The notes beneath the pieces were generated by a model that was not told the DNA's origin, ran no database searches, and saw only the letters and a list, made by a program, of their open reading frames with translations. This document shows, piece by piece, positions 1-24,726 of a stretch of DNA of 24,726 bases. The position numbers were made by a program, and so were the translations under genes. This stretch comes from a virus. Numbering within the stretch: the first letter of the stretch is position 1; the number at the start of each line of letters is the position of its first letter. Location of the stretch: positions 1 to 24,726 of IMG/VR virus record IMGVR_UViG_3300041407_000158. One strand, written 5' to 3'.

Positions 1-9
1 ATGAGGCTC

Positions 10-42
10 GCTCTCCAAGAGCAACCGGCCGCAAGCGGCCGG
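10..42. repeat. GC-rich inverted repeat downstream of the first DUF1566 gene
   Basis: A perfect 8-bp inverted repeat (CCGGCCGC, 25-32, and GCGGCCGG, 35-42) with a 2-nt spacer starts 14 bp beyond the stop codon of the minus-strand DUF1566 gene. A second, smaller hairpin (GCTCT-CCA-AGAGC, 10-22) lies next to it. There is no clean T-run on the minus strand after the stem, so it is a poor intrinsic terminator. A short GC-rich hairpin just beyond a variable repeat is a known feature of diversity-generating retroelements, which makes this placement notable, but a plain transcript-end hairpin is equally possible. Confidence 0.55.
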
Positions 43-56
43 ATTAAATAAGCGAA

Positions 57-677
57 TTAATCAATCAATTGACTGCGGACGGGGCGGACACGGAGCTCGC
101 TGGTCTTGCCGTCGTTGAGCTGATGGCCATCATCGAAGTGCATGGTGAATGCGTAGTTGGCGGAGCGCTGCGAACTCGACCAGTACCAGGTGTCTTTGAA
201 GGCTTCCGCGCCGCCGGCCTGGAAGGACGTGAGCACCGCCTGGGTTGGCGATTCATCGCTGTAAAGCAGACCTACCGGCTCGCTGTTTGGGTTGTCACCG
301 TCGCGGCGACCTGCCCAGTTCGTTTCGGTGGTCGGCTTGAAGTGGCGATACTGCAGCTCCTGCACGTCGCGCGCCGGGATCGCCCAGTCGTTGAAGCCCC
401 CGATATCCAGAGTCAGCACCTGTTGTGCCAACTCACTGCCAGCGGCCGCCATCGCTTCGGTGTTGGCGCGGCTGTTGGTGAAGCTGTCAGCACCTTCGAT
501 CTTCTCGCCGTACTCGCCCCAAGCACCGCTCAGTTCGTGCGCGGCGCCGGCAGTGATGTTCAGGTAGCGCTTGCCGGTGTCCGGGTCACGGGTGATGCCG
601 CTGAAGAACCCGCCGCCGAACGGCTGGCCGATTTCCGGGATAGTCACTGCTGGTGCTGCTTTAGCTACTGCGGACAT
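57..677 (-). CDS. DUF1566-domain (C-type-lectin-like) protein, copy A
   Basis: A 206-residue protein. I chose the ATG at 677 because AGAGGAAAG precedes it; a longer in-frame start at 704 is not an ATG and lacks this site. The C-terminal third carries the DUF1566/Lcl signature: WYWSSSQRSANYAF, an acidic/Gly patch, and a terminal ELRVRPVR. Such domains adopt a C-type-lectin-like fold and are often surface-binding or host-interaction proteins; some are diversified by retroelements. No signal peptide or membrane segment is visible. The last 101 bp before the C-terminal tail (73-173) are 90 percent identical to the equivalent part of the neighbouring gene at 754-1365, while the rest is unrelated. 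It is the last gene of the minus-strand block inside the window. A phage adhesin or moron product is the best guess; the ligand is unknown. Confidence 0.8.
   Translation of the reverse strand: MSAVAKAAPAVTIPEIGQPFGGGFFSGITRDPDTGKRYLNITAGAAHELSGAWGEYGEKIEGADSFTNSRANTEAMAAAGSELAQQVLTLDIGGFNDWAIPARDVQELQYRHFKPTTETNWAGRRDGDNPNSEPVGLLYSDESPTQAVLTSFQAGGAEAFKDTWYWSSSQRSANYAFTMHFDDGHQLNDGKTSELRVRPVRSQLID
73..173 (-). repeat. Variable-repeat-like 3' segment, copy A
   Basis: This 101-bp stretch of the DUF1566 gene aligns without gaps to 767-867. There are 11 mismatches, in nine codons, all at first or second codon positions; every third position in the 33 codons is identical. In copy A the variable codons read, in order, TAC, ACC, CAC, GAT, CAT, CTC, AAC, GAC, ACC, all explicable as mutated AAC or AAT. 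The 30 bp at the 3' end (73-102 on the plus strand), a GC-rich block, are identical in both copies and could correspond to an initiation-of-mutagenic-homing region. An 11-bp tag (41-51) is also shared with 751-761. Confidence 0.7.
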
Positions 678-702
678 GGTCTTTCCTCTTTTCGAAGGCA
701 AC

Positions 703-722
703 AAAAAAGGCGCTGCTGCGCC
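703..722 (-). terminator. Intrinsic terminator after DUF1566 copy B
   Basis: On the minus strand a 5-bp GC stem (GGCGC, loop AGCA, GCGCC) is followed directly by six T residues. It lies about 30 bp beyond the stop codon at 754 and just upstream of the ribosome binding site of copy A, so it would reduce transcription from copy B into copy A. It might also be the cruciform partner of the copy B variable repeat. Confidence 0.65.
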
Positions 723-753
723 CGGTGCCGATCAAGAACGAATGATTGAAGGA

Positions 754-1365
754 TTAAATAAAGAATCTGCGGACGGGGCGGACACGGAGCTCGCTGCCCT
801 TGCCGTAGTAGTCCTGATTGCCATCACCGAAGTCCATGTTGAATGCGTCGTTGGCGGAGCGCTGCGAAGATGACCAGTAGTAGGTGTCCTTCGCGAACAG
901 TTCCGGCACGTTTACCCAGCAGTGGTACAGCTCGCCGCAGGCTGGCAGGTAAAAGTCGTGATGACCGCCTGCCTGGTGTTCGGCACAGGCATCGGCTGCC
1001 GGATACTTCCTCTCGTCATCGTTGCCGATCAGTACCTGCGTGTTGGTGTAGCCGTCGGTCTTGCTGAGGCCTTTCACCTCAACTCCACGGCCGCCCCACT
1101 CAAGACTGCCAACATCCTTGGCTGCGATGATCAGGTAGTGCGCCGGGACATCGCCGCGAGCGGCTACCAGTCCACCGTTGTAGCCGCCTTGGCCGGGCCA
1201 CTCAGCGCCAAGCGCAGGAACCGAATAAGCGGTGATCGGTTGAACGTTGGCCGCCGGCGGAAGGGTCTGAGCAAGCATGCCTGCCATCAGCAGCTGAACC
1301 ATGCGCTCAGAAGTGCCTTTGATCTTGAAGCCATCGGCCTCGATTGAAATTGTGTTGGCTTTCAT
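754..1365 (-). CDS. DUF1566-domain (C-type-lectin-like) protein, copy B
   Basis: A 203-residue protein starting at an ATG with GAGGA seven bases upstream. The N-terminal half (about residues 1-60) is unrelated to copy A. The central and C-terminal part has the DUF1566 layout, including DFYLPACGEL, then YYWSSSQRSANDAF and the final ELRVRPVR. Known DUF1566 domains are lectin-like folds used for binding. Only the last ~45 residues match copy A, and there at nucleotide level, so the two genes share a homogenised or retro-copied 3' cassette rather than being a simple duplication. No signal peptide is seen. Function is unknown; a host-surface binding or virion decoration role is inference. Confidence 0.8.
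   Translation of the reverse strand: MKANTISIEADGFKIKGTSERMVQLLMAGMLAQTLPPAANVQPITAYSVPALGAEWPGQGGYNGGLVAARGDVPAHYLIIAAKDVGSLEWGGRGVEVKGLSKTDGYTNTQVLIGNDDERKYPAADACAEHQAGGHHDFYLPACGELYHCWVNVPELFAKDTYYWSSSQRSANDAFNMDFGDGNQDYYGKGSELRVRPVRRFFI
767..867 (-). repeat. Variable-repeat-like 3' segment, copy B
   Basis: Partner of 73-173. Variable codons, in coding order, are GAC, AAC, GAC, GGT, AAT, GAC, TAC, TAC, GGC. Immediately 5' of the matched block the two genes differ in synonymous ways (TCG AGT against TCA TCT), whereas inside the block no synonymous change occurs. This sharp edge argues for recent copying of the segment, followed by changes confined to AAY-type codons. Confidence 0.7.
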
Positions 1366-4444: not shown

Positions 4445-5086
4445 CTACAAAAACGTGCTCGGGTACTTTACGTCGATCACGCGCCCAATGATTTCTACCG
4501 AATCATCCATTACGAGCATTTGGTAATCCGGATTCAGCGGCTTCAAGTACTCGACTCCAGCATCACGTACGTACTGCTTCAAGGTCTTCTCGCCATCGGC
4601 TCGAAGCCTTGCGATATAGAACTTACCACTGATTAGATCGAACCCTTCGGGCTTGATCAACACTCGCATACCTGGCGTAAAACCATTCCCCTGAACAGGG
4701 GTCATGGAATCTCCTTGGACCTCAAGCCAATAACCGTTCGGCCCAGCATTTACGTCAGATGCGATCCTTTCGTACGGCTGTCCATTATCGCAAGACTCCG
4801 TCCACACACCAGCAGCGACCCAGCTAATCAAAGGATACTCCTTGGCTTCCTTGTAGGGTTGCGCAACAGATAGCACATTCCCGTGAGCAGGACCAAACAG
4901 CAACCATTCAGGTGTGACGCTAAGCGCGCGTGCGAGCTTTTCAAGTGTGGCCTTTCTTGGCGTACTGCTATCACCGTTCAAAATTCGATGAATCGTTGGC
5001 TGGGGCACGCCCGAACGGCGTCCTAGCTCATTCTCCGATAGATCCTTTTCCAGCATTTTTGTGCGCAGCCGCACTGCGATCGTCAT
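4445..5086 (-). CDS. S24-family phage repressor (CI/LexA-like)
   Basis: A 213-residue two-domain repressor that keeps the lysogenic state by binding the operators next to its gene. The HTH spans about residues 16-38 (LSENELGRRSGVPQPTIHRI). The autocleavage bond is most likely Ala92-Gly93 (SWVAAGVW), with catalytic Ser127 (GDSM) and Lys170 (EKTLKQY), the S24 dyad, so RecA-stimulated self-cleavage after DNA damage is expected. I start at ATG 5086, where homology begins; the frame stays open upstream over the operator, which must be an artefact. The ribosome binding site is weak, as is usual for transcripts starting at or near a repressor ATG. It is divergent from the Cro-like gene. Confidence 0.92.
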   Translation of the reverse strand: MTIAVRLRTKMLEKDLSENELGRRSGVPQPTIHRILNGDSSTPRKATLEKLARALSVTPEWLLFGPAHGNVLSVAQPYKEAKEYPLISWVAAGVWTESCDNGQPYERIASDVNAGPNGYWLEVQGDSMTPVQGNGFTPGMRVLIKPEGFDLISGKFYIARLRADGEKTLKQYVRDAGVEYLKPLNPDYQMLVMDDSVEIIGRVIDVKYPSTFL

Positions 5087-5123
5087 TTGTTCGACCCGGC
5101 GTATTAAAGGAGGTCGAAGTGTA

Positions 5124-5152
5124 TTGCCTGTTGTAATTCGGTTGCGTATTAT
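5124..5152 (+). promoter_or_regulatory. Rightward early promoter
   Basis: TTGCCT (5124-5129), 17-bp spacer, TATTAT (5147-5152). Transcription would begin near 5159 and read the Cro-like gene and then the early operon. The minus 10 box sits at the centre of the dyads described for the operator. Confidence 0.7.
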
Positions 5153-5166
5153 CGCAGATATTACAA
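5131..5166. promoter_or_regulatory. Nested operator dyads of the lysis-lysogeny switch
   Basis: TTGTAAT (5131-5137) and ATTACAA (5160-5166) form an inverted repeat around an inner palindrome TGCG-N6-CGCA (5143-5156) whose six central bases are exactly the minus 10 box. Repressor or Cro binding here would block the rightward promoter. The leftward (repressor) promoter has only a poor candidate minus 10 (TAATAC, minus strand, just above the repressor start). Confidence 0.6.
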
Positions 5167-5185
5167 ATCGCATTGGTAGGCCCTT

Positions 5186-5377
5186 ATGACCATTACAGAA
5201 ATGCTGGCCGAGTTGGCACAGCACGGCTGGAGCCAGGCTCGAATCGCCGAACAGTGCGAAACGACTCAGCCGACCATTTTCAGAATCACGAAAGGCGGGA
5301 GTGCCCGTTACGAGGTGGGTACGGCGATCGTGGCCCTTCACAAACGGGTTTTGAAAGCCAAGCGTACTGCCGCGTAA
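5186..5377 (+). CDS. Cro-like HTH protein
   Basis: A 63-residue protein that is mostly a helix-turn-helix: MLAELAQHGWSQARIAEQCE then TTQPTIFRITKG, with the second helix around IFRITKGG as recognition helix. Size, position directly downstream of the early promoter and divergence from the S24 repressor are those of a Cro-type protein, which lowers repressor synthesis on entry into lytic growth. GGTAGG precedes the ATG by six bases. A basic tail (HKRVLKAKRTAA) may add DNA contacts. Confidence 0.8.
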   Translation: MTITEMLAELAQHGWSQARIAEQCETTQPTIFRITKGGSARYEVGTAIVALHKRVLKAKRTAA

Positions 5378-5491
5378 TTCGATTCCCAGCCGTTCATCCG
5401 CTTGATGATGGGCCAATTATCAACGCTGACGAAGCAAACCGAAAGTGAATTGCTTTAGCTGTGGATTCATCCAGTACAAAAAACGAAGACG

Positions 5492-8002: not shown

Positions 8003-8427
8003 AGCCCGCCGCCATGAAGCTGTTCAAGCAGAATCCGGTGCGCGCCAAGGCAATCGACCGCGAAGGCCAGGAACAGGCCGCGCTGATGACCGAAATCGAG
8101 CTGCGTTACCCGCAAGTGTTCGAGCTGATCTACCACGTTCCGAATGGCGGTCACCGTCACAAGCTGGTGGCCATGAAGTTAAAGCAGCAGGGCGTGAAGG
8201 CGGGCATTCCTGATCTGGTCCTGCCAATGGCTCGCGGCGGGTTCTTCGGGTTGTACATCGAGTTCAAAGCCACTGTTGATCCAGCGGCGGTCTCTGCAAG
8301 CCAGGCAGCCTGTATCCGTCGCCTCAATGAGCAGGGCTATCTCGCAGTGGTATGTCGCGGGCACTTCGACGCGATGGAGCAGATCCGGGCTTACCTGCGA
8401 CTTGCTCCAACCGTGGTGGCCGCGTGA
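7999..8427 (+). CDS. VRR-NUC domain nuclease
   Basis: A 142-residue protein with a compact VRR-NUC (PD-(D/E)xK superfamily) core: YHVPNGG, KLKQQGVKAGIPDLVLPMAR, GLYIEFK and the end AVVCRGHFDAMEQIRAYL. Catalytic Asp lies in GIPD and Glu/Lys in IEFK. Stand-alone phage VRR-NUC proteins are thought to resolve branched DNA or act in recombination; the precise substrate here is not known. It is bound to the integrase gene by a GTGA overlap, so the two are made from one message. Confidence 0.88.
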   Translation: MKPAAMKLFKQNPVRAKAIDREGQEQAALMTEIELRYPQVFELIYHVPNGGHRHKLVAMKLKQQGVKAGIPDLVLPMARGGFFGLYIEFKATVDPAAVSASQAACIRRLNEQGYLAVVCRGHFDAMEQIRAYLRLAPTVVAA

Positions 8428-12193: not shown

Positions 12194-12679
12194 ATGGGAG
12201 GTACCGCCACGGTCGCCGGCCGTGGTCGCAAACCCAAGCCGACGGCGCAGAAGAAACTCGCTGGAAACCCCGGAAAGCGGGCGCTGAATCATGATGAGCC
12301 CCAGTTCACAACCGTCACAAACATCGATCCGCCGGAGTGGCTCAGCGAGCGCGCTGCCACCATGTGGAAGATGCTTATCCCGGAATTACTCCGGGAAAAA
12401 GTTGTTGCGCTGACCGATCTGCACAACGTCGAGGCGTTCTGTACCGCCTATGACAAGTGGCGAATGTCCGAAGAAGCCGTTCAGAAATTCGGGATCGTCG
12501 TCGAGTCTGCCCAGGGTAGCCCGATGAAAAATCCTGCGCTCACAGCGGCAAATGAATCCATGCGTCAGCTGGTCACCTTCGGCTCGCTTCTCGGCCTCGA
12601 TCCGGCCAGTCGTACTCGGATCATCGGCGGTAACAAACAATCCTCCACCAACGAATTCGCAAAACTATTGAGTTCCTGA
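12194..12679 (+). CDS. terS: Terminase small subunit (P27 family)
   Basis: A 161-residue protein; AGGAG seven bases upstream of ATG. The basic N-terminus ([20 protein letters not shown]) is the hallmark of the P27/Terminase_4 family, followed by [20 protein letters not shown], the helical core [20 protein letters not shown] and a C-terminal [11 protein letters not shown]. It recognises the packaging site and guides TerL. It overlaps the TerL start by one base (TGATG), so translation is coupled. Confidence 0.92.
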
Positions 12680-14406
12680 TGGCCAATTCCCTGCACCCAA
12701 ACGTCGACAAGGCGATGGCTTGGGGAAGGTCTCTTTTGCGTGGGAAGGTTCCAGCGTGCCGCTACATCCACCAGGCCGTGCAGCGTCATTTTGATGACGT
12801 GACAGCCAGCCGCAAGCGCGGTTTCCGTTTCAAGTTCGACCCAGCCAAGGCTGAGAAGAAGCTAAAACTGATCCAACTCCTGCCGCATACCAAGGGTGAG
12901 TGGGCATTCAAGCGGCAGCTGATCACTCTGGAGGCGTGGCAACTTTTCGGCCTGGCTGTAACGTTCGGCTGGGTCAAGAAGAAGGGCGGCCATCGCCGGT
13001 TCCGTGAAAGCTATTGGGAAGTGCCCCGCAAGAACGGCAAGTCCGTAGTCGCAGGCGGCGTTGGCATCAGCATGTTCGTTGCCGACGGCGAGTACGGTGC
13101 CGAGGTGTACGCAGGCGCTACCACTGAGAAGCAGGCATGGGAAGTATTCCGCCCGGCCAAGCTGATGGTGAGCAAGTCGCCCATGCTGGTGCAGGCGGCC
13201 GGCATTGAGGTGAACGCCTCGAACATGAACATCCCGTCCGACTTCAGCCGCTTCGAGCCGCTGATCGGCAACCCCGGCGATGGTGCTTCGCCCAGTTGCG
13301 CCATCGTCGACGAATTCCACGAACACCCAACATCAGCTCAGTACGACACCATGCTCACCGGTATGGGTGCGCGTCGGCAGCCACTGATGTTCATCATCAC
13401 CACGGCCGGCGCTGATATTGAAGGTCCTTGCTACGACAAGCGCCGCCAGGTGATCGAAATGCTCGAGGGCACCGTGCCCGACGACGAGCTATTCGGATGG
13501 ATATGGACGCTGGACGAGGGTGACGACTGGACCGATCCGAAGATGCTGGCCAAGGCCAACCCGAACCACGGGGTCTCGGTGTTCCAGGAGTATCTAGAAA
13601 GCCAACAAGCCCGGGCTATACGCTCTGCGCGGTTCACCAACACCTTCAAGACAAAGCACTTGAACCTATGGGTGAGCGCCAAGTCCGGCTTCTTCAATAT
13701 GGAAAGCTGGAAGGCGTGCGAAGACACCACGCTGACGCTGGAGCAGTTCGAGGGACAGGAGTGGAACGCTGGTTTCGACTTGGCGAGAAAACTCGACATG
13801 AACTCCAGATCCAGGCTTTTTTGGCGTGTGATCGATGAAAAGGTCCACTACTACAGCATCGCTCCGAAGTTTTGGGTTCCCTATGACACCGCCTTCAATG
13901 CCGATAACAAGCGGATGTCGGAGCGGTTCCAGGCGTGGATTCACTCCAAGCATCTGGATGTGACTGATGGTGCTGAGGTCGACTATCGCGAGATCCTCGA
14001 GGACACCAAAGAGGCGAACCGTCACGCGCCGATTCGTGAGTGTCCGATTGATCCGCACGGGGCAACAGGTCTTAGCCATGATCTTGATGATCAGGGTTTT
14101 GAGCCGGTCACCATCACGCAGAACTACACGAACATGTCCGATCCAATGAAGGAGCTGGAAGCTGCGATAGAGGCTGGCCGGTTCCATCACGACGGCAACC
14201 CGATCATGACCTGGTGCATCGGCAATGTGATCGGCAAAAACCTGCCTGGTAACGATGACGTGGTGCGCCCGATCAAGCAGGGCGATGACAACAAGATCGA
14301 CGGCGCCGTCGCTTTGATCATGGCGATTGGCCGCGTTCTGGCGAACCTACACCCCGACGACACCCTCTCTGATCACATCTCCAAGCACGGAATTCGAACC
14401 CTATGA
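12679..14406 (+). CDS. terL: Terminase large subunit
   Basis: A 575-residue packaging motor and nuclease. ATPase motifs: Walker A PRKNGKS (residues 116-122), Walker B CAIVDE (207-212) with catalytic Glu212, and coupling motif TTAG (241-244). The nuclease half has GFDLARKLD with Asp367 and a late [11 protein letters not shown] with Asp541, metal-ligand candidates of the RNase H-like fold. The length fits the HK97-type TerL group (Terminase_1). It pumps DNA into the prohead through the portal encoded two genes on. Confidence 0.95.
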
Positions 14407-14594
14407 CCGACGAAATCAAGCCGACAAAGTTGGAGGCGCTGAAAGAGGCCGCTCCCGATCTCGTCGGCGTCCTTGGTTTGGCTTTGCTGACGCGCGGTCT
14501 TTGGGTGTGGGTGGGTGAGTCACTCGCGCTGACCGTTTGTGGCGCTCTGTTGATCACCTTGTCCGTGGTCTCAATTGTGCGAGGTGATCGTTGA
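14403..14594 (+). CDS. Small membrane protein between TerL and portal
   Basis: A 63-residue protein with ATGA overlap to TerL and TGATG overlap to portal. After a polar N-terminus ([20 protein letters not shown]) come two hydrophobic stretches, about 20-35 ([18 protein letters not shown]) and 40-58 ([19 protein letters not shown]), ending in basic RGDR. It is a probable two-pass inner-membrane protein. A small gene in this slot is frequent in Pseudomonas phages; its role is unknown. Confidence 0.65.
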
Positions 14595-15805
14595 TGCTCC
14601 GCGCACTCCTTGGAAGGAAAGGTGGTACTCAGATCATTGATACGCCGGAAAAGCTCGCCCAGGCATTGGGCGCAGGATATGAAAGCAATGCTGGCCAACG
14701 TGTGACCACCACGAGCGCCATGCAGCAATTGGTTGTATTCAACTGCGTACGGGTGCTGGCCGAGTCAATGGGGATGTTGCCTTGCCGCCTTTTGAAGCAG
14801 ACAGGCCGGGTCCGATTGCCAGCTACGGCGCATAGGCTCTACCCGCTGATCACGATGGCACCGAACAGCTACATGACTGCCCAGGAGTTCTGGGAGATGT
14901 TGGTGGCGTGCCTGTGTCTTCGTGGCAACTTTTACGCTTACAAGGTGATGGCGCTGGGCAATGTGGTAGAGCTGCTACCGCTCAGCCCGGACATCGTTAC
15001 CCCCAAGCTAAAGGATGACTGGACGGTTGAGTACACAGTCAACTTCAAGTCGGGAACCCAGGTCCTCACTCAGGACGAAATCTGGCATGTCCGGCTGTTC
15101 ACGCTGGATGGGCTGAACGGGTTGAACCCAATTGCTTATGCGCGTCAGGCGCTCGGCTTGGGCCAGGCTATGGACGCTCATGCGGCCAAGCTTTTTACCA
15201 ATGGAGCCGTTACCAGTGGTGTTCTGAGGACTGAGCAGAAACTCACCGATGAGGCTTTCGGACGGCTCAAAACGGAGTTTCAGGGCGAGCATATGGGCGT
15301 GGCTAACGCCTACAAACCTATGATCCTGGAGATGGGGCTGGACTGGAAACCAATCAGCCTCAACGCCCAAGACACCCAGTTTATCGAATCCAAAAAACTG
15401 ACGGAAGCGCAGATCTGCGGATTGTTCCGGGTCCCACCGCACCTGGTGGCCAGCATGGAAAAAATGACGCTCAACAACATTGAGCACATGGGCATGAGCT
15501 TCGTGAACTACTCGCTGGTCCCGATCATGACCCGCATCGAACACCGCATTCAGGTCGGCCTGCTCAGTGAGAAAGACCGGCTGACTCATTACGCCAAGTT
15601 CAACGCGGGCGCCCTCATGCGTGGCGACCTGAAGGGGCGATATGAGTCCTACGGCAAGGGCATTCAGTGGGGCATTTTGAGCCCAAACGACTGCCGCGAA
15701 CTGGAAGACGAGAACCCCCGCGAGGGCGGCGACATCTACCTCACCCCCATGAACATGACCACTAAACCAGAGGCTGCCGACGATGCAGACAAAACAGCGC
15801 CTTGA
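14594..15805 (+). CDS. HK97-family portal protein
   Basis: A 403-residue portal, the dodecameric channel for DNA entry at one capsid vertex. I choose ATG 14594 (TGATG overlap); a TTG three bases earlier is in frame. Family marks include VFNCVRVLAESMGMLPCRLL, FWEMLVACLCLRGNFYAYKV, DEIWHVRLFTLDGLNGLNPI and the C-terminal RIEHRIQVGLLSEKDR and GAILSPNDCRELE-type segment (GILSPNDCRELEDENPREGG). Length and order (TerL, portal, protease, capsid) match HK97. Confidence 0.94.
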   Translation: MLRALLGRKGGTQIIDTPEKLAQALGAGYESNAGQRVTTTSAMQQLVVFNCVRVLAESMGMLPCRLLKQTGRVRLPATAHRLYPLITMAPNSYMTAQEFWEMLVACLCLRGNFYAYKVMALGNVVELLPLSPDIVTPKLKDDWTVEYTVNFKSGTQVLTQDEIWHVRLFTLDGLNGLNPIAYARQALGLGQAMDAHAAKLFTNGAVTSGVLRTEQKLTDEAFGRLKTEFQGEHMGVANAYKPMILEMGLDWKPISLNAQDTQFIESKKLTEAQICGLFRVPPHLVASMEKMTLNNIEHMGMSFVNYSLVPIMTRIEHRIQVGLLSEKDRLTHYAKFNAGALMRGDLKGRYESYGKGIQWGILSPNDCRELEDENPREGGDIYLTPMNMTTKPEAADDADKTAP

Positions 15806-16442
15806 CGTGCCGCTGACCATTAAGTCGGTCAGCGACAGCGGCGAGTTCGAAGGCTACGGTTCCGTGTTCGGCGTCGTGGACAGTTATAGCGATGTGGTTG
15901 TCCGAGGCGCATTCACGGCAAGCCTCGCCAGGTGGAAGGAAAAAGGACGTCTGCCGGCGATGCTCTGGCAGCACAACATGAGCGAGCCGATCGGCATTTA
16001 CACCGAGATGCGCGAGGACGACGTCGGCCTGTACGTCAAAGGTCGACTTCTGGTTGATGCGGATCCACTGGCCAAGCGCGCGCACGGGCACATGAAAGCA
16101 GGAAGTCTTACCGGGCTATCCATCGGCTACATGCTCGAAGATGGCGGCTACGACTATGACAAGGAAAAGGGCATCTGGCTGCTGAAGGCTATCGACCTAT
16201 GGGAAGTATCCCCGGTCACCTTCCCAGCCAACGATGAGGCCCGGATTACTGATGTGAAATCTCTGCTGGCCCGCGGCGAAACACCGCCGCCCAGCAAAGT
16301 GGAGCGAGCCCTTCGAGAGGTTGGGTTTTCTGGCTCTCAGGCCAAGGCCTTCATGGCCAAAGGCTACGGCGCAGTTTCACCGCGAGAGGCGGGTGCCGAC
16401 GACGCACTGCAATCCCTTAAATCACTTATGAACCGAATGTAA
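15783..16442 (+). CDS. HK97-type prohead protease (peptidase U35)
   Basis: A 219-residue serine protease that trims the capsid scaffold domain during maturation. The fold is seen in GEFEGYGSVFGVVDSYSDVV and the catalytic pair in His64 (LWQHNMSEPIG) and Ser113 (LTGLSIGYML). The C-terminal tail (about 160-219) is variable and may target it to the prohead. The gene overlaps the portal frame by 23 bases, more than any other junction here; no strong ribosome binding site is visible, so coupling to portal translation is likely. Confidence 0.93.
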   Translation: MQTKQRLDVPLTIKSVSDSGEFEGYGSVFGVVDSYSDVVVRGAFTASLARWKEKGRLPAMLWQHNMSEPIGIYTEMREDDVGLYVKGRLLVDADPLAKRAHGHMKAGSLTGLSIGYMLEDGGYDYDKEKGIWLLKAIDLWEVSPVTFPANDEARITDVKSLLARGETPPPSKVERALREVGFSGSQAKAFMAKGYGAVSPREAGADDALQSLKSLMNRM

Positions 16443-16452
16443 GGAGCCTCTC

Positions 16453-17655
16453 ATGGCTGTTGAATTGAAAGATGTGGAACAAGTCGCTGAAGCCCTGGGC
16501 AAGAAGTTCGACGAGTTCAAGGAAAAGAACGATAAACGCATTGATGGCCTGGAAGCCGAAAAGGGCAAGCTGTCCGGCCAGGTCGATACGCTCAACGAAA
16601 AGCTGGGCGAATTGGATGCGCTGAAAAGCGAGCTGGAAAAAGAACTGCTGGCGCTGAAGCGTCCGGACGGTACCGGCACCAAAGCAGCCAGCGAGCACAA
16701 GACCGCGTTTCTGCAGTTTGTGCGCAAGGGTGTCGATACTGGCCTGGGCGACCTGCAAGCGAAGGCTCTGCAGATTGGCACCGAGGCAGACGGTGGTTAT
16801 GCGGTACCTGAAGAAATGGACCGCAATATCATCCAACTGCTCCGCGATACCTCGCCGATGCGCCAGGTTTGCAACCAGATCACCGTCGGGTCGCCAGACT
16901 ACAAGCGTCTGGTCGGTTTGGGTGGCGCTGGGTCTGGCTGGGTTGGTGAAACTGATCCGCGGCCGGCGACGGGCACGCCTACCCTCGGGCAGATATCTGC
17001 CTTCATGGGCGAGATTTACTCCAACCCCCAGGCCACTCAAACCAGTCTGGACGACATCTTCTTTAACGCCGAAACGTGGCTCAACGAAGAGGTCGCGCGC
17101 GAGTTTTCCGAGAAAGAAGGCAACGCGTTCCTCCTGGGTAACGGCACCAACAAGCCGAAAGGTCTGTTGGCGTATCCATTGCTGACCACGTCCGACGAAG
17201 TCCGCGCGTTCGGCTCCCTGCAAAATCTTATTTCGGGCTCGGCCGGCGCCTTCAATGGCGACAAGCTGATCGATCTGATTCACGCGTTGAAGGCCGGCTA
17301 TCGGGCTAACGGCAAGTTCATGATGGGCAACCTGACCGTCGCCTATGTGCGCAAGCTGAAAGACAGCGAAGGCAACTACCTGTGGCGTCCTGGCTTGGAA
17401 GCCGGGGCTCCTTCGAGCCTGCTGGGCTATGGCATCGTCGAAAACGAAGACATGCCAGATGTCGCTGCCGATGCCAATGCCATCGCTTTTGGCGACTTCA
17501 AGCGCGCCTACACCATTGTGGATCGCATCGGTACCCGTGTGCTGCGCGACCCGTACACCAACAAGCCCTACGTTGGCTTCTACACCACCAAGCGCGTCGG
17601 CGGCATGCTGGTCGACTCTCAGGCCGTGAAGGTGCTCACCCTCAGCGCTGCGTAA
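16453..17655 (+). CDS. HK97-fold major capsid protein
   Basis: A 400-residue capsid subunit with AAGGAG at an ideal distance. Residues 1 to about 95 are a charged coiled-coil delta/scaffold domain (FDEFKEKNDKRIDGLEAEKG), removed by the protease. The mature part has the family marks GGYAVPEEMDRNIIQLLRD, FFNAETWLNEEVAREFSEKE, FLLGNGTNKPKGLL and YVGFYTTKRVGGMLVD. The cleavage point is probably around residues 95-115 (inference). A stable hairpin follows the gene at 17663-17678. Confidence 0.95.
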   Translation: MAVELKDVEQVAEALGKKFDEFKEKNDKRIDGLEAEKGKLSGQVDTLNEKLGELDALKSELEKELLALKRPDGTGTKAASEHKTAFLQFVRKGVDTGLGDLQAKALQIGTEADGGYAVPEEMDRNIIQLLRDTSPMRQVCNQITVGSPDYKRLVGLGGAGSGWVGETDPRPATGTPTLGQISAFMGEIYSNPQATQTSLDDIFFNAETWLNEEVAREFSEKEGNAFLLGNGTNKPKGLLAYPLLTTSDEVRAFGSLQNLISGSAGAFNGDKLIDLIHALKAGYRANGKFMMGNLTVAYVRKLKDSEGNYLWRPGLEAGAPSSLLGYGIVENEDMPDVAADANAIAFGDFKRAYTIVDRIGTRVLRDPYTNKPYVGFYTTKRVGGMLVDSQAVKVLTLSAA

Positions 17656-17662
17656 CTGGATT

Positions 17663-17678
17663 GGCGCCTTCGGGCGCC
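17663..17678 (+). repeat. UUCG-tetraloop hairpin after the capsid gene
   Basis: GGCGCC-TTCG-GGCGCC, a very stable hairpin with the special C(UUCG)G loop, eight bases after the capsid stop. No T-run follows, so it should not terminate; protection of the capsid mRNA from 3' exonucleases is a reasonable inference. Confidence 0.7.
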
Positions 17679-17697
17679 CGCCCTCTCGGAGGTTGTT

Positions 17698-17898
17698 ATG
17701 CCGAAGATATTGGTAAATAAGCCTTTCCCGTTCGCAGTCGATGGCAATCATGTCATTCAGATTGAGACGGGGGAGCAAGAGGTTTCTGACCGTTGTGCGA
17801 TTGTCGCAGTGGATCACCTGAAGTTCGCAAGCTTTGCTGGTGGCGAAAAGCCCAAGGCTGAAATGAAGCCAAAATCTGAGAAGCGGAGTCAAGAATGA
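17698..17898 (+). CDS. Small head-region protein
   Basis: A 66-residue protein with CGGAGG six bases upstream of ATG. The N-terminal part (KILVNKPFPFAVDGNHVIQI) looks like a small beta fold; the C-terminal end is a Lys/Glu-rich tail (GEKPKAEMKPKSEKRSQE). Such short proteins with a beta N-terminus and charged tail are frequent directly after the capsid gene of HK97-like Pseudomonas phages and may be minor capsid or decoration components. It overlaps the connector gene by four bases (ATGA). Confidence 0.65.
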   Translation: MPKILVNKPFPFAVDGNHVIQIETGEQEVSDRCAIVAVDHLKFASFAGGEKPKAEMKPKSEKRSQE

Positions 17899-18212
17899 TC
17901 GAGCTCGCGATCGTCAAATCGCATCTGCGTGTTGATCATGATGACGAAGACGATCTGATTCAGGGTTATGCCGATGCTGCGCTCAGCGCATTCGAGACTT
18001 GGACCAATCGAAAGCTGATCGACCCACCTGAAGCGTTGCCAGATCCGGTCGGCAATGCACTGATCATGAGCAAGGCCATCAAGCAGGGGGCCTTGCTGCT
18101 AATTGGTCATTGGTACAACAGTCGTGAAGCCGTGGTGATCGGTACCATCACCGCAGAGCTGCCAATGGCAACCAATGCGCTCTGGCTGCCTCACCGCTGG
18201 GTGAATCTGTGA
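17895..18212 (+). CDS. Head-tail connector (gp6-like)
   Basis: A 105-residue protein matching the HK97 gp6 / Phage_gp6 group: KSHLRVDHDDEDDLIQGYAD, AALSAFETWTNRKL and IKQGALLLIGHWYNSREAVV. It forms the ring beneath the portal that starts the neck. ATGA overlap with the previous gene and GTGA overlap with the next. Confidence 0.88.
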   Translation: MIELAIVKSHLRVDHDDEDDLIQGYADAALSAFETWTNRKLIDPPEALPDPVGNALIMSKAIKQGALLLIGHWYNSREAVVIGTITAELPMATNALWLPHRWVNL

Positions 18213-18529
18213 GAGCCGGCCCGCTGAAACACCGCTGCGCGCTGATGCAGTCGCAGAAGGTAAAGCGCCCGGGTGGTGGTTTCGATGAGTCTTGGGTTGA
18301 GCTCGGTAAGCTCTGGGCGGAAATCGCCATCCCCACGGGTCGAGTTGCTCCAGTGGCTGACCGCCTGGAAGCGACGGTCACCGCCGAAATAAAAATCCGC
18401 TACCGGTCCGACGTAGTCGCAGGTCTGCGTATCTCCCATATCAAGGGTACTTACTTGGTCGAGGCAGCATTGCCTGACCGAGATCCCGCCATGCTCAGGC
18501 TGTTGTGCTCGAGCGTTACCAACCCCTAG
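18209..18529 (+). CDS. Head-tail adaptor / head closure protein
   Basis: A 106-residue protein with GTG start in a GTGA overlap. It fits the Phage_H_T_join (SPP1 gp16-like) family: MRAGPLKHRCALMQ, the GGGFDESWVELGKLWAEI segment and the beta-rich TVTAEIKIRYRSDV with GLRISHIKGTYLVEAA. It plugs or extends the neck after packaging. Confidence 0.85.
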   Translation: MRAGPLKHRCALMQSQKVKRPGGGFDESWVELGKLWAEIAIPTGRVAPVADRLEATVTAEIKIRYRSDVVAGLRISHIKGTYLVEAALPDRDPAMLRLLCSSVTNP

Positions 18530-18540
18530 AGGTTATCCAC

Positions 18541-18738
18541 ATGAAAGTACGTGCCCTGGCCAGTATCTCTGGCGGCTCAGGCGATCGCGCCGTGGGCGAT
18601 GAATTTGTTGTCGGTGCGGCACTGGCCCAGGAATTGATCGAGCGTCGCCTGGTGGAGGCGGTTGCCGCCGAGCCCGAGGCCGCAGAGGACGCTACCTCCG
18701 CCAAAACAGCGAAGGCCAAGGCTGCCGCCAAGGAGTAA
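18541..18738 (+). CDS. Small neck-region protein with Ala/Lys tail
   Basis: A 65-residue protein starting at ATG 18541 behind AGAGG. The first ~40 residues (ASISGGSGDRAVGDEFVVGA, LAQELIERRLVEAV) look like a compact fold; the rest is an Ala/Lys/Glu-rich low-complexity tail (TSAKTAKAKAAAKE). Similar small proteins (DUF7302-type) occur between adaptor and gp10-like genes. The precise role is not known. Confidence 0.65.
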   Translation: MKVRALASISGGSGDRAVGDEFVVGAALAQELIERRLVEAVAAEPEAAEDATSAKTAKAKAAAKE

Positions 18739-18742
18739 AGCC

Positions 18743-19318
18743 ATGGCTGCTCGCAGATCTCGCGTGTCGGGCGACTTCAAGCTGAGGAAGACGCTGCGCA
18801 ACATCCACACGCAACTGGATAACGAGCTCAAGCCGGCAATGCAGGAAGCTGCCGACAAGCTGCTCGACACGATGAAGCAGCTGGTACCGCGCGACTCGGG
18901 CCAGGCAGCGGAAGCCTTGGAAGCCTTTGTCAGCAAGTCCGGGCTTGATGCTCAGATTGGCTTGCGAGGCAAGAAGGACAATCAGCGATTCTTCTACCTG
19001 CGATTTCTGGAGTACGGCACCAAGGGTTATAGCGGCACTGTGTACCGCCGCGCTGATGCCGCCGCGATAGGTGGCGAGCACACCACTAATCGCGATCGAT
19101 CAAAGCTCAGCGGCAAGAATCGTTTAGGTCGGCGCGAGACGAAGAACAAAAGCGATGGCACGCACTTCTTCGGCAAGTACCCGGATATTCCGGCCCGCCC
19201 GGCTCACCCCTGGCTCCGTCCGGCCTACGACGTGAACAAGGAGTTTGTCTTGGCCAGTATCAGGCATGCAGTCAGCAACACGCTGAAGCGAGCCGTGGAG
19301 GAGTTGGGCAATGGCTGA
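18743..19318 (+). CDS. HK97 gp10-like tail completion protein
   Basis: A 191-residue protein; I use ATG 18743 behind AAGGAG, not the open frame upstream. Marks of the HK97-gp10 family: LLDTMKQLVPRDSGQAAEAL, FFYLRFLEYGTKGYSG, and the end PARPAHPWLRPAYDVNKEFV. It caps the tail tube at the neck. It has an inserted basic segment (about 115-150) compared with the shortest family members. It overlaps the next gene by eight bases. Confidence 0.88.
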   Translation: MAARRSRVSGDFKLRKTLRNIHTQLDNELKPAMQEAADKLLDTMKQLVPRDSGQAAEALEAFVSKSGLDAQIGLRGKKDNQRFFYLRFLEYGTKGYSGTVYRRADAAAIGGEHTTNRDRSKLSGKNRLGRRETKNKSDGTHFFGKYPDIPARPAHPWLRPAYDVNKEFVLASIRHAVSNTLKRAVEELGNG

Positions 19319-19694
19319 TCCATCCTTTGCGTTGCAGGTGGCGCTGTTCGACAGGCTTGAGGCTGAGGTGTCGTGCCCTATCTACGACAGCGTGCCAATG
19401 GATGCACCGCTCCCGTATGTCTCCCTGGACTATGAGATTTCCAGCAACGACGACCCGCTGGCCAGCCGGCGTGATATCCGGCTGTTCTACCTGTCGGTCT
19501 GGTCTGAATTCAAAGGCCAGGAGGAAGTGAAGCGCCTCATGGCCGAGATCGATGCGGCGACTCACGAACGACCGTTACCGCTCACCACGGGGCGCGTCGT
19601 CTCGATCCGCGTCGACCGCAAGCAAACAAACCGGGAACCGGACGGCGTTACCTACCAGGGCAGCGTCACGCTCCGAATCATCACCCAACACTAA
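19311..19694 (+). CDS. DUF3168 tail terminator-type protein
   Basis: A 127-residue protein with the DUF3168 pattern: LFDRLEAEVSCPIYDSVPM, LPYVSLDYEISSND, FYLSVWSEFKGQEEVKRLMA and the end YQGSVTLRIITQH. DUF3168 proteins are tail completion or terminator components related to lambda gpU. Position between gp10-like and tail-tube genes agrees. Confidence 0.88.
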   Translation: MADPSFALQVALFDRLEAEVSCPIYDSVPMDAPLPYVSLDYEISSNDDPLASRRDIRLFYLSVWSEFKGQEEVKRLMAEIDAATHERPLPLTTGRVVSIRVDRKQTNREPDGVTYQGSVTLRIITQH

Positions 19695-19750
19695 ACCGCT
19701 GAACCAACGCCGCCACGCGGCTCTATCACCTGTCCTCAGGAGGACTATCT

Positions 19751-20224
19751 ATGTCTGTTAATACCGGCGCTGGCACGCGGATCTCTATTGGTCCACGCCT
19801 GTCTGCGAAGCTTCCCGCCCTTGAGGCGACTGCAATCACGCTGCTCGCTGGCCTGACCTACGTCGCTGTCGGTGAGGTGGAAAGCATCGGCGACTACGGC
19901 GATACGACCAACGATGTGACCTTCGCAGCGCTGGCCGACTCTCGAAATCGTCACCTGAAAGGTCTGTCCGATGCCGGATCGACCGAAGTTGTCATTGGTT
20001 TTGATGCGGGCGATGCAGGTCAGCTCGCCATGGTTGAGGCGTACCGAGATCGCTCGCAGTACGACTACCCGATCAAGGTCGAGTACGTCGATGGTCTGGT
20101 CGACTATTTTGCCGCCAAGGTCATGAGCAACAAGAAAACCGGCATCAGCGTCGAGGGTGTGCTCAAGCGCACCGTGACCCTTGGCATCAACTCCGAAATC
20201 TACGAAGTGCCTGACGCTCCGTAA
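19751..20224 (+). CDS. Major tail tube protein
   Basis: A 157-residue protein; AGGAGG seven bases before ATG. It has the long-tail tube pattern: ITLLAGLTYVAVGEVESIGD, GSTEVVIGFDAGDAGQLAMV, FAAKVMSNKKTGISVEGVLK. The protein stacks in hexameric rings to form the flexible siphovirus tail. A GC hairpin without T-run lies after the stop (20245-20262), matching what is seen after the capsid gene. Confidence 0.88.
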   Translation: MSVNTGAGTRISIGPRLSAKLPALEATAITLLAGLTYVAVGEVESIGDYGDTTNDVTFAALADSRNRHLKGLSDAGSTEVVIGFDAGDAGQLAMVEAYRDRSQYDYPIKVEYVDGLVDYFAAKVMSNKKTGISVEGVLKRTVTLGINSEIYEVPDAP

Positions 20225-20244
20225 TTCGGCTGCCCCCCATCTGG

Positions 20245-20262
20245 CGCCGCAGTTCAGCGGCG
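20245..20262 (+). repeat. GC hairpin after the tail tube gene
   Basis: CGCCGC, loop AGTTCA, GCGGCG, about 20 bases after the tail tube stop and without a T-run. It is comparable in place and type to the capsid hairpin at 17663-17678, so an mRNA-stabilising role is likely. Confidence 0.6.
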
Positions 20263-20298
20263 TCAGTCCCACACCCTATTTCGATAAAGAGAACACCC

Positions 20299-20649
20299 AT
20301 GTCCAGGACCAACCACGGCACCGTTGAAGTCACCGTCGGCGATGAAACCTTCACCCTGAAGCCGACCTTAAAAGCCATGAAAGCGATCGAAGCACGCCAT
20401 GGCGGGATTCTGCCGGCCATGCAGTCTGTCGGTTCCGCGAACCTGTCCACGATCTGCTTCATTATCGCGGTGGGCGCGGGCGTTAACTTGGCCAAGAAGG
20501 GTGCCATCGATCCAATCGAAGAGGCTGTATTCGAAGCTGGCCTGAACGATGTTGGCGCTCAGGTCATCCCTTACCTCAACGGTTTCTTGAATCCGGCCGG
20601 CAAGAGCGAAGCCGAACTGGAAGCGCAGGATAAGTCGGGAAACGAGTAA
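20299..20649 (+). CDS. Tail assembly chaperone, short form (G)
   Basis: A 116-residue chaperone (GTA-gp10-like) that binds the tape measure during tail assembly. Marks: VTVGDETFTLKPTLKAMKAI, EARHGGILPAM and FIIAVGAGVNL. The stop lies just after a GGGAAAC slippery site (20637-20643), from which a fraction of ribosomes shift into the T frame. The preceding 74-bp gap contains the tube-gene hairpin. Confidence 0.88.
   Translation: MSRTNHGTVEVTVGDETFTLKPTLKAMKAIEARHGGILPAMQSVGSANLSTICFIIAVGAGVNLAKKGAIDPIEEAVFEAGLNDVGAQVIPYLNGFLNPAGKSEAELEAQDKSGNE
20637..20643 (+). promoter_or_regulatory. Minus-one slippery heptamer
   Basis: G_GGA_AAC in the G reading frame (codons GGA at 20638 and AAC at 20641), fitting the X_XXY_YYZ rule, six codons or fewer from the G stop. 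A minus-one slip opens the T frame, which then has no stop until 20903. Confidence 0.85.
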
Positions 20650-20903
20650 AGCGGGATCCCGATCTCAGCGTAGTCGATGAGCTATTCAATATAGCGACCG
20701 GCTGGCTAGGATGGTCGCCAAGCGAGGCATGGAACGCCTGCGTGGTTGAAATCGTCATGGCGTGGGATTCGAAACGCCAGTTCCTGATAGATACCAATCC
20801 ATTCGGCGGGAGCGGCGACAAGGACAAGCCATCGAAAACGGCCGTGGCCAAGGAGGCTCGAATGGGGTTCCGGGTGGCGGCGATGGGCAGGAAGAAAGAC
20901 TAA
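20643..20903 (+). CDS. Tail assembly chaperone, frameshifted extension (T of GT)
   Basis: This frame is read only after the minus-one slip at 20643, giving a GT fusion of 201 residues (115 from G plus 86). It has no start of its own. Family marks are VVDELFNIATGWLGWSPSEA, WNACVVEIVMAWDSKR and the terminal ARMGFRVAAMGRKKD. In lambda the ratio of G to GT is essential for loading tail tube subunits onto the tape measure; the same is expected here. Confidence 0.87.
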   Translation, partial: RVKRDPDLSVVDELFNIATGWLGWSPSEAWNACVVEIVMAWDSKRQFLIDTNPFGGSGDKDKPSKTAVAKEARMGFRVAAMGRKKD

Positions 20904-20919
20904 ACACCGATTTACCAGG

Positions 20920-20941
20920 ACCGCCTTGTGCGGTTTTTTTT
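20920..20941 (+). terminator. Intrinsic terminator between GT and tape measure
   Basis: ACCGC, loop CTTGT, GCGGT, then an unbroken run of eight T. The stem is short (5 bp) but the T-run is strong. It would reduce or, without antitermination, stop transcription before the tape-measure gene. Confidence 0.65.
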
Positions 20942-20957
20942 CGCCTGGAGAAAAGCA

Positions 20958-23900
20958 ATGGCTGACGCCGACGTACAAGGCATGTTGATTCGCATCGAGG
21001 CGACCACGGCGCAGCTTCGTCAGGAGATCGCGCGCGGTGAAGCCGCTGTCGCGCAGTCAGCCGGGAAAATGGATGCCAGCCTGGGTCGCATCGACACTGC
21101 ATTTGATCGCGCAGGATCGAGCGCCGAGAGCGCGGCTGGTCTGATTAAAAATGCTTTGGGCGCAGCGATTGGCGCAGCCTCCATCGGCACAATAATCAAA
21201 ACCGCCGACTCGTATTCGCAGATGTCCGACCGTATCGGCATGGCTACCAAGAGCTTCGGCGAATACAGCACTGTTCAAGAGCGTTTGCTGGCGACTGCAA
21301 ACCGCACCTACCGTCCGCTTGAAGAGGCTCAAGAACTCTACATCCGTACGTCTGATAGCCTTCGCTCGATGGGCCTCAGTGCAAACCAATCCATGGACGT
21401 CATGGATAGCTTCAGCTATTTGCTGGTGACGAACTCGACATCGGCGGACAAGGCTAGCTCTGCCATTGATGCTTATTCCAAATCGCTGCAAACCGGCAAG
21501 ATCGATGCCGATTCCTGGCAGGCCATGCTTGCTGCAATGCCTACCATTGTCGACACACTGTCGAAGGCAACCGGCAAATCAGCCGAAGAAATCCGCAACT
21601 TAGGTGCTCAGGGGAAACTGAGCCTCGACACGCTGACTGAGGGGTTACAAAAAAGCGCCGAAGCCAACGGCCTGCTCGCTGACAGCATGGGTGTCGCGGT
21701 GCGTGACGCTTTAGTCGCGCTGAATAATGCCTTCACCGTGTACGTGGGGCAGCTCAACGAGTCCACCGACGGAACCGGCATACTTGCGTCCGGCATATCG
21801 GTTCTGGCCGATAATTTCGGCACCATTGCTGAGGTTGCCGGAGTTGCTGCGGTGGGTGCGCTTGCGGCCTACGCTCGAGGGCTTGCGGGCTCTGTGGCAG
21901 GGTCTGTACTCGCCACGAAAGCAGCTATTGAAGACGCTGTTGCGCGGCGCGCCCAAGCTACCTCGCTGCTGCTTGCGGTCCAGGCTGACCAGCAGAAAGC
22001 TCAAACCGCTGTGTTCCTGGCCCAGAAAGAGGCTGTTGCTGCAAAAGGCACGGCAATGCAGACGCAATTGTCGCTGCAGCTTGCCGAGGCCCGGATGGTC
22101 GAAGCCCGCGCAACGGCCGCAGTGGGGGCTGCGCAGACCGCTATCGTTGGTACCGGCCGTACAATTATGGGGCTGTTGGGTGGTCCTGCCGGCATCGCCA
22201 TGCTTGCCATTGGCGCGGCCACTGCATTTCTCACTCTCCGCGATAACACCGGCGATCTTGAAAAAAAGCTGGGCGACCTTTCAGATCCGATCGACAAACT
22301 CACCAAGAAATTCAACGAGCTTGACCGGGCCACCCAATCTGTAACGCTGCGCGAGTTGCGCAGTACGATCGCCGATGCCCAAGAGGATCTGTCGACCGCC
22401 GCCAACTCGATATCGTTCGAGTTCCAAAGCAGTCTGACCAACGCCGGGCTGGCTGGCGCCTCGGGCTTTATGGCGGGCATTGCTCCATTGCCTGCCGAAT
22501 TTCAGGCCGCCATCGACATCGTAAAAAAGGCATCGGCTGACCAAGCGAGCGGAATGGTTGTTGACTGGAAAGCCGTTGCTGACCAGGTGCGGCAGGTTCC
22601 AGGTGTCACTGTAGAGGTAGCTGACGCGCTGGAGAAAAGTGGCGGTGCAGCGGCAACATCAAATGCTGAGCTTGCCAAGCTAAAGGACACCGTTTCCCAG
22701 CTAACAGGCGAAACCGACGAGCTCACGAGGGCCGAGCGCGAGAATGCTGCAGCAAAGGCGGAAGCCGCTGGTATTGGGCAAAAGTACCTCGAGCAACTAC
22801 AAAAACAACTAGGGGCCGCGCAGGACAAAACCTCGCTAGAGGCTGCCAACAGATTCATCTCCGAAAATACCGACCTCACTGAAGGCATGGTCACTGCCAT
22901 TCGCTCTGCTGCCGCGGCAAAAGACGCGCAGAAGGCCTCGGACGATGCAGCCACCAAGGCAACCAAAAGTGGCACCAGTGCTGTAAAGGAAGCTGCAACG
23001 GAGGCAAAAAGCCAGGCCAAGTCGCTCGCTGATTTAAAAAACCAAGCCGATATCGCCATCGCCTCGGCCACCGGTTTGGCTGCTGCCTACCTGGCTGGCA
23101 CGGACAAGTCCCGTGAATTCAGCCTCCAGCAAAAGGTTGAAGAGGCGCTGCTGAAAACCGGGGCAGCTGCTCGTGCCGAAGTTATCGCCAAGCTCACTGC
23201 CGAGAAGGACGCCCAGGACAGGCTGAACATTAGCAAGTCGGCGTATGACCTTGGCAAAGAAACAGCTGATCTGATTGCCCAGGCCAAAGCCACCCTGATG
23301 GGTGCTGATGCGCTGGCGGCGTACAACGCCCAAAAGTCGCTGACCGTTGCCCTTGCTGGCAAGAACATCGAAGTTGGCAGTAAGGAATATGAGCAGCTGC
23401 TGGCGGCGAATAAAGCCCAACAGGAAGCGGTGAAGATTGCCCAGCAGGCGGCCAATTCTGTCGGGATCATGGATCGCCTGTATCCCGAGGCCAAGCTGCT
23501 CAAGGATTACACCGAGGATCAGAAAGCCCTGAATGCCGCCATGGCGCTCTATCCTGAAAACGCCGCCAACTACCAGTCTGCATTGGTAAAGCTTGGTAGC
23601 GAATATGAAGTAAACCGCAGCAAGGCCACGCTGTGGGGGCAGATGACCGAGGGCGCAATCGATCGTATCGACGAAGCCTTTGCAACTGCTTGGGGCAATA
23701 TCGGCGAAGGCGCGAACAGCCTGTGGGATAACCTGAAGAAAGGCTTCAAGCAGACGCTGGGCGAGATCGCCCACATGCTCACCACCAAGCCACTGCTGGC
23801 GTCGATTAGTAATTGGTTGACCGGCGCAGATAATGGTCAGGGCTTGTCGTCGGTGTGGGGCAAGTTGCTGGGTGGCGCGACCGGCCAGCAAGGCGGAAGC

Positions 23901-24726
23901 GGCGGCATGGCAGGTATGGGCAGCAACCTGGTCTCGATGGGTAAGAGCATTTACCAGGCATACAGCGCGATCACTGGTGTCGGCTCGTCGGTTGCATCGG
24001 GCTACGCCTCAGGCGGTATCAGTGGTGCGCTCTCGGGTGGTGCCAGTTACTACGGCAACATGCTCTCCAGCATCAGCGGCACGCTGTCCAATGGTTTCAC
24101 CAGTCTCGCCTCGACAATCACTGGCACGGCAGCCGTTCAGACGGCAGCCACCATCGGTGCGCAAGGTGCATCCAGCGCGCTTCTATCAGGCGCGGTATCG
24201 CAAGGCGCGACGGCTATCGGCTCGCAGTTCACCACAGGGGTCGCCACGACCACGGCGGCAACTTACGCTGCCGCGGAGGCCGGCGCAGCTGCTACGGCGG
24301 CTTCGCTGGGCGGCCAGATCAGTGCGGCCGTAAGCAGCGCTGCCGCCATGTGGCCGCTTGCGGTCATCATGGGCATGTACCAATCCGGCAAGTTGTACGA
24401 CGCCGGGGTTCGTCCGGATGCTGGTGAAATCATGGACAGCGGCGGCAAGACCGTCCTGGGCAAGGTCGCCATGGCACCAGGCGCGGCGATGTCGGGCTTC
24501 TTCGAAGCGCAAGACAAGGCGCTGAGCAAGGTAGTGGGCGGCAAATGGGCAGCCATTCTCAGCGGTTCAACCCTGCACCAGGCCGTCACCAAGTACGTGG
24601 GCGAAAAGCTGTTCGGCGGTGCCTGGCAGACCAAGAATTCGGGTATCTCCCTGGGCGTAGAGGATGGCCAGCTTGAGGCTCAGCAGTTCATCGACCAGAA
24701 GAAAAAAGGCGGACTGTTCTCAAGCA
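20958..24726 (+). CDS. Tail tape-measure protein (3' end outside window)
   Basis: At least 1256 residues, still open at the window edge; GGAG seven bases before ATG. It sets tail length. N-terminal tape-measure domain about 70-260 (YSQMSDRIGMATKSFGEYST, TNSTSADKASSAIDAYSKSL, WQAMLAAMPTIVDTLSKATG). Hydrophobic stretches near 293-315 and 403-425 (IMGLLGGPAGIAMLAIGAAT) could insert into the host membrane at infection. Long Ala/Lys/Glu coiled coil about 430-880. A lambda H-like segment near 900-955 (WDNLKKGFKQTLGEIAHMLT), then a Gly/Ser/Ala-rich region. Confidence 0.93.
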   Translation, partial: MADADVQGMLIRIEATTAQLRQEIARGEAAVAQSAGKMDASLGRIDTAFDRAGSSAESAAGLIKNALGAAIGAASIGTIIKTADSYSQMSDRIGMATKSFGEYSTVQERLLATANRTYRPLEEAQELYIRTSDSLRSMGLSANQSMDVMDSFSYLLVTNSTSADKASSAIDAYSKSLQTGKIDADSWQAMLAAMPTIVDTLSKATGKSAEEIRNLGAQGKLSLDTLTEGLQKSAEANGLLADSMGVAVRDALVALNNAFTVYVGQLNESTDGTGILASGISVLADNFGTIAEVAGVAAVGALAAYARGLAGSVAGSVLATKAAIEDAVARRAQATSLLLAVQADQQKAQTAVFLAQKEAVAAKGTAMQTQLSLQLAEARMVEARATAAVGAAQTAIVGTGRTIMGLLGGPAGIAMLAIGAATAFLTLRDNTGDLEKKLGDLSDPIDKLTKKFNELDRATQSVTLRELRSTIADAQEDLSTAANSISFEFQSSLTNAGLAGASGFMAGIAPLPAEFQAAIDIVKKASADQASGMVVDWKAVADQVRQVPGVTVEVADALEKSGGAAATSNAELAKLKDTVSQLTGETDELTRAERENAAAKAEAAGIGQKYLEQLQKQLGAAQDKTSLEAANRFISENTDLTEGMVTAIRSAAAAKDAQKASDDAATKATKSGTSAVKEAATEAKSQAKSLADLKNQADIAIASATGLAAAYLAGTDKSREFSLQQKVEEALLKTGAAARAEVIAKLTAEKDAQDRLNISKSAYDLGKETADLIAQAKATLMGADALAAYNAQKSLTVALAGKNIEVGSKEYEQLLAANKAQQEAVKIAQQAANSVGIMDRLYPEAKLLKDYTEDQKALNAAMALYPENAANYQSALVKLGSEYEVNRSKATLWGQMTEGAIDRIDEAFATAWGNIGEGANSLWDNLKKGFKQTLGEIAHMLTTKPLLASISNWLTGADNGQGLSSVWGKLLGGATGQQGGSGGMAGMGSNLVSMGKSIYQAYSAITGVGSSVASGYASGGISGALSGGASYYGNMLSSISGTLSNGFTSLASTITGTAAVQTAATIGAQGASSALLSGAVSQGATAIGSQFTTGVATTTAATYAAAEAGAAATAASLGGQISAAVSSAAAMWPLAVIMGMYQSGKLYDAGVRPDAGEIMDSGGKTVLGKVAMAPGAAMSGFFEAQDKALSKVVGGKWAAILSGSTLHQAVTKYVGEKLFGGAWQTKNSGISLGVEDGQLEAQQFIDQKKKGGLFSS

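Follow-up and report, generated by a model that had tools for sequence, protein, structure and literature searches.

Two adjacent DUF1566 genes at the edge of a phage fragment are very probably targets of a diversity-generating retroelement known from related Pseudomonas loci

Two adjacent genes at one end of the unfinished 24,726-bp virus fragment IMGVR_UViG_3300041407_000158, the whole of which is the window analysed here, finish in almost the same 101 bp, which raises the question of what process has shaped these gene ends. As the first-pass annotation of the window had described, the blocks at 73-173 and 767-867 form a gapless alignment with differences at 11 sites in nine codons, all of them at codon position 1 or 2. 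The third positions of all 33 codons are likewise the same within the block, and synonymous or other differences resume directly outside it on both sides. We conclude, from comparison with related sequences, that the window very probably holds the two target genes of a phage-borne diversity-generating retroelement (DGR) that was cut off at the contig edge (Table 1). In a DGR, an RNA with a template repeat (TR) is copied by the DGR reverse transcriptase (RT) together with Avd, with misincorporation opposite template adenines. Here the mutagenised cDNA would replace the 3' end of the target genes, the variable repeat (VR), by mutagenic retrohoming and leave the template unchanged. The product would be two small DUF1566 proteins (often three in relatives) with randomised C-terminal ligand-contact positions, which would correspond mostly to AAC or AAT template codons, the structural residues staying fixed.

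Table 1. Features of the window that bear on the proposed DGR.
Feature	Position	Strand	Evidence or remark
RBS region and AT of the expected avd ATG	1..18	-	alignment with L003, L004 and L084, where the avd ATG comes next
Hairpin/cruciform CCGGCCG-CTTG-CGGCCGG	25..42	-	located 30 nt past VR1; candidate element for recognition in retrohoming
Target gene a (206-aa DUF1566/Lcl_C protein with a 3'-terminal VR)	57..677	-	Pfam Lcl_C E 2.9e-8
VR1 (VRa position)	73..173	-	10 differences from the orthologous TR, all at TR adenines, plus silent allele T84
Inverted repeat GGCGC-AGCA-GCGCC, then T run	708..723	-	~44 nt after VR2; terminator-like or candidate retrohoming element
Target gene b (203-aa DUF1566/Lcl_C protein with a 3'-terminal VR)	754..1365	-	Pfam Lcl_C E 5.4e-7
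VR2 (VRb position)	767..867	-	10 differences from the orthologous TR, all at TR adenines, plus silent allele T84
CI-type repressor (HTH and S24 peptidase)	4445..5416	-	Pfam HTH_3 and Peptidase_S24; VR genes downstream, same strand
Terminase, portal, capsid and tape-measure genes	12679..24725	+	Pfam TerL, portal, capsid; ORF list

The first base of the record lies 56 nt beyond the end of gene a, and the window breaks off within the expected avd start codon, after its first two bases (AT). Because the window ends at the expected start of Avd, this phage would have its TR and RT just off the contig. No third copy of the 101-bp block was present in the assembly, which holds only the two copies named above, and an Rfam scan of the window returned no match, as expected if the TR and its associated RT-15 RNA are off the contig.

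The start of gene a is probably the ATG at 677, in keeping with its homologues, and not 704. The Lcl_C matches of both gene a and gene b fell slightly under the curated cut-off (gathering score); DUF1566/Lcl_C was assigned by Pfam in 80 of 101 homologues, and orthologues of gene a were present in all related loci. Gene b also gave a profile match to PDB chain 8q4e (HbP1; E 2.8e-5), and its predicted fold matched DUF1566 phage proteins in BFVD. A fold search of the PDB with two AlphaFold models found no match to a C-type-lectin fold, probably because the variable region was modelled with low confidence. More distant DUF1566 homologues (30-44% identity) occur in PA5oct, MIJ3, Callisto, D3 (orf68), PMG1 and PMBT3; the Pseudomonas phages with such homologues include ~287-kb jumbo phages, and PMG1, which lacks an RT, has just one VR-like end.

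Searches with gene a yielded 114 related loci (80 viral and 34 genome loci) in phages, prophages and genomes, which are partly non-independent because the isolates behind some viral contigs are represented in the genome set as well. Their hosts, where named, were nearly all Pseudomonas, and the phage records recovered included Cruim01, Aurca01, Medea1 and SC_8_H2H8_2017. A template and an RT had been predicted to the left of position 1 on the minus strand, and this is where they were found, with Avd between, in 94 of the 105 loci with at least 2.2 kb of downstream sequence; these 94 loci carry the full cassette of two DUF1566 genes, Avd, TR and full RT. In most loci the TR lies ~700 bp downstream of VRa, after a gene of ~118 aa and before the RT gene. 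The ~118-aa gene is Avd, the Cruim01 protein matching Pfam bAvd (1.1e-14, above cut-off) and phrog_3206, 'Avd protein of DGR' (1.5e-31), with a weak, below-cut-off match to NCBIfam DivGenRetAVD; homologues were present in most related loci, and the window has the avd leader only. The RTs of the relatives matched RVT_1 and phrog_1423, and the DGR motif IGNLSSQ was found in all 100 full-length sequences, with YVDD in 99 of them. In each of the five complete loci scanned, the Rfam RT-15 RNA (RF03018) was found and ended where the TR begins; for the window, its place would be beyond the contig edge. The RT also matched DRT families in PADLOC, which reflected general RT similarity and was not counted as evidence for a defence RT. 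A third DUF1566 target with its own VR was seen 2-8 kb upstream in ~25 viral loci (including L008, L010, L019, L024, L033, L040, L044 and L051, and Cruim01 at 43591-43691), most of these VRs being without a strong hairpin behind them.

The first-pass annotation had proposed that the same locus in related phages be compared for A-specific variation. In 225 TR-VR pairs, 3,191 of 3,270 mismatches (97.6%) fell at TR adenines, with changes to G, T and C numbering 1462:1173:556; L049, L079, L116, L118, L120 and L121, whose TRs were badly aligned or divergent, were left out of these aggregate statistics. The TR itself was nearly invariant across loci. It had been objected that several adenines are unchanged in both copies, and this stood for CAG, AAG and GAG, which are almost never changed in the whole family, but not for ATG, which varies elsewhere in the family. 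Thus, A5, A17, A53, A67, A68, A77 and A100 were changed in 0-10% of VRs, A24 and A31 in 23%, and most other adenines in 40-85%. The residues at the rarely changed adenines (Gln, Lys and Glu) are conserved, so that selection for the fold explains their constancy. The variable AAY codons encoded up to 15 residue types and no stop codon at all.

A further comparison was between two loci (L060 and L099) that are identical in their TRs and in the 300 bp before each VR and ~3% different over the remainder of the 2.9-kb region. Their VRs showed 14 and 10 differences, without exception at TR adenines, and other pairs of loci with 97-99% identical flanks behaved in the same way. Since near-identical loci differ only at VR adenines, the DGR is, judged by these comparisons, active in the family, and the same differences suggest that the VRs would be transferred by retrohoming.

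The two VRs of the window were compared with the orthologous consensus TR in the version with the T84 allele, which a third of TRs carry. Together they showed 13 distinct altered sites, and all 13 were TR adenines (hypergeometric P ~2.5e-8, with A at 31 of the 101 TR positions; this value assumes uniform placement and ignores selection). Neither VR had accumulated any non-adenine change relative to the TR. Sites 65 and 74 had been missed in the comparison of one VR with the other because both copies carry the same A>G. The earlier statement that every variable codon pair can derive from AAC or AAT was too narrow, as the TR codons include GAT and GAC too.

A candidate recognition element was also found behind VR1. 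Its exact stem, CCGGCCG/CGGCCGG, was kept in 87 of the 114 VRa loci, a stem of at least 7 bp was present in 98 of them, and the element was absent after the TR in the related loci. Retrohoming in Bordetella phage BPP-1 requires a GC-rich hairpin of 7-10 bp with a 4-nt loop, for which the consensus is GRNA (PMC3240598). The loop after VRa, CTTG in most loci, departs from this consensus, which was drawn from a small set of phage DGRs and does not define a DGR. The inverted repeat after VR2 has a stem of just 5 bp and was conserved in 97 of 112 VRb loci.

We weighed two explanations that dispense with a retroelement. The first-pass annotation had named as its main alternative recent gene conversion between the gene ends, combined with ordinary selection at ligand residues, and the two adjacent paralogues with a near-identical block and nonsynonymous differences only are in keeping with such a history. 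For the family, however, this alternative is refuted by adenine-restricted change against a third copy: the relatives hold a non-coding, nearly invariant repeat that predicts every altered site as an adenine, Avd and the RT adjoin it, and between strains with the same 300 bp upstream the only differences are at 10-14 adenine sites. We therefore regard gene conversion as very improbable. The repeat might instead be merely a conserved core motif of DUF1566, held alike by protein constraint, and the motif SQRSA...ELRVRPVRR is indeed conserved across the family. Protein constraint does not, however, preserve third codon positions, all of which are identical in the block, whereas the flanks and gene bodies differ at synonymous sites; this explanation was rejected, and we give it practically no weight.

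With the blocks read as DGR targets, it has to be asked whether the element of this phage is intact. Eleven of the 105 relatives had no intact RT, and in the locus with the highest protein identity to the window (L003, 90%) an HNH-type gene stands where the end of avd, the TR and most of the RT would be, the avd leader being intact despite this loss. The VRs of RT-less loci mostly retained the adenine-only pattern. These three observations favour a sub-case of the DGR reading that differs on present function, in which VR1 and VR2 are relics of a DGR since lost or only served in trans. Against it, 94 of the 105 relatives are complete, and the window VRs are free of accumulated non-adenine change. 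In addition, the last 72 bases of the minus strand, which contain the hairpin and the avd leader, agree with the leader found in RT-bearing relatives as far as the AT of the start codon and are unlike the leaders of most RT-less loci (among them L012, L053, L085, L086 and L105), from which these features are missing. We thus consider the relic sub-case unlikely, and it is likely that this phage has an intact element just off the contig. The HNH-type gene of L003 (L003:5289-5908) is endonuclease-like.

The RT-less relatives offered further observations. Aurca01 (L085) and Medea1 (L086) are both without Avd, TR and an intact RT and share a common scar with 3 differences in 624 bp. Their gene-b bodies differ at 4 of 498 positions, and of the 101 sites in their VRb copies 15 differ, each of them a TR adenine; this divergence points to diversification in trans after the loss of the RT, or to module exchange. 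The genome of Pseudomonas sp. Irchel 3E20 combines a pair of DUF1566 genes that has no RT with a complete DGR at a separate locus (L105 and L106).

The Pseudomonas loci resemble the BPP-1 DGR (mtd-avd-TR-brt) in their order of target(s), Avd, TR and RT, in the adenine-specific change from TR to VR, in the position of the VR at the target 3' end and in the GC-rich 7-bp hairpin with a 4-nt loop ~30 nt after VRa, by the hairpin rules of PMC3240598. Unlike BPP-1, in which one tail-fibre protein (Mtd) is the target, they carry two or three DUF1566 targets, which lie in a leftward early operon and not in the tail module, and the hairpin loop is CTTG rather than GRNA. The DUF1566 target domain and several VRs per TR are shared with bacterial and metagenomic DGRs (PMC4159848, PMC6642488). 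Both of these features and the abundance of DGRs in Pseudomonas, which is among the genera with the most frequent finds (PMC6642488), have thus already been published. Among open-licence PMC papers, we found none on the DGR of this lineage of lambdoid Pseudomonas phages or on its place in the early operon. Less usual are the location of two or three targets of a temperate phage in its early operon and the occurrence in nature of derivatives that have no RT but whose VRs still show differences almost exclusively at adenines. Pseudomonas phage Cruim01 (PP179333) has the complete cassette of two DUF1566 genes, Avd, RT-15 RNA, TR and RT, together with a remote third VR; its record is annotated with a 'retron-type RNA-directed DNA polymerase' and a 'hypothetical protein' and bears no DGR label.

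The genomic surroundings bear on what the targets might do. Wherever the markers were present, the DGR was codirectional with the genes for SSB, exonuclease, ERF recombinase and CI repressor (up to ~10 kb upstream, same strand), and Rha and the window-type integrase lay on the opposite strand in the related loci. Queries for terminase, capsid, tape-measure and tail-fibre proteins found no match in the ~10-kb flanks of the related loci, in which distant tail proteins may be missed because the queries came from Cruim01 and the window only. In the complete records of Cruim01 and SC_8_H2H8_2017, the annotated tail genes are >12 kb and >19 kb from the DGR and on the other strand; the structural genes of the window are likewise on the strand opposite the VR genes and >11 kb distant. 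The integrase gene of the window (8352-9704, plus strand) lies between the replication genes and the terminase, not beside the repressor operon, and SC_8_H2H8_2017 has its integrase in the same gene order.

DGR targets are generally expected to have a binding role. The DUF1566 target proteins had no evident signal or membrane segment, and in the two targets of the window no segment was strongly hydrophobic (maximum 19-residue Kyte-Doolittle means of 0.77 and 1.04). The early-operon position suggests that the targets act in the infected cell or lysogen and not in the tail, and they are probably early-expressed non-virion binding proteins. Where a role has been assigned to a viral DGR target, the protein is mostly a tail protein that serves attachment (PMC8144416). 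The targets described here, which belong to a widespread lineage of Pseudomonas phages, are grouped with repressor and recombination genes and lie on the other strand from the tail genes. As a tentative joint reading, to which we give somewhat less than an even chance, the DGR of these lambdoid Pseudomonas phages would diversify small non-virion proteins of the early operon that act inside the lysogen or infected cell, for example in superinfection exclusion or counter-defence, and RT-less phages may be diversified in trans by co-resident relatives. The natural RT-less relatives provide a test case for such trans-acting diversification, for which the Irchel 3E20 genome is a natural setting, and the cultured members of the lineage (Cruim01, Aurca01 and Medea1) make the diversification of phage proteins other than receptor-binding ones directly testable.
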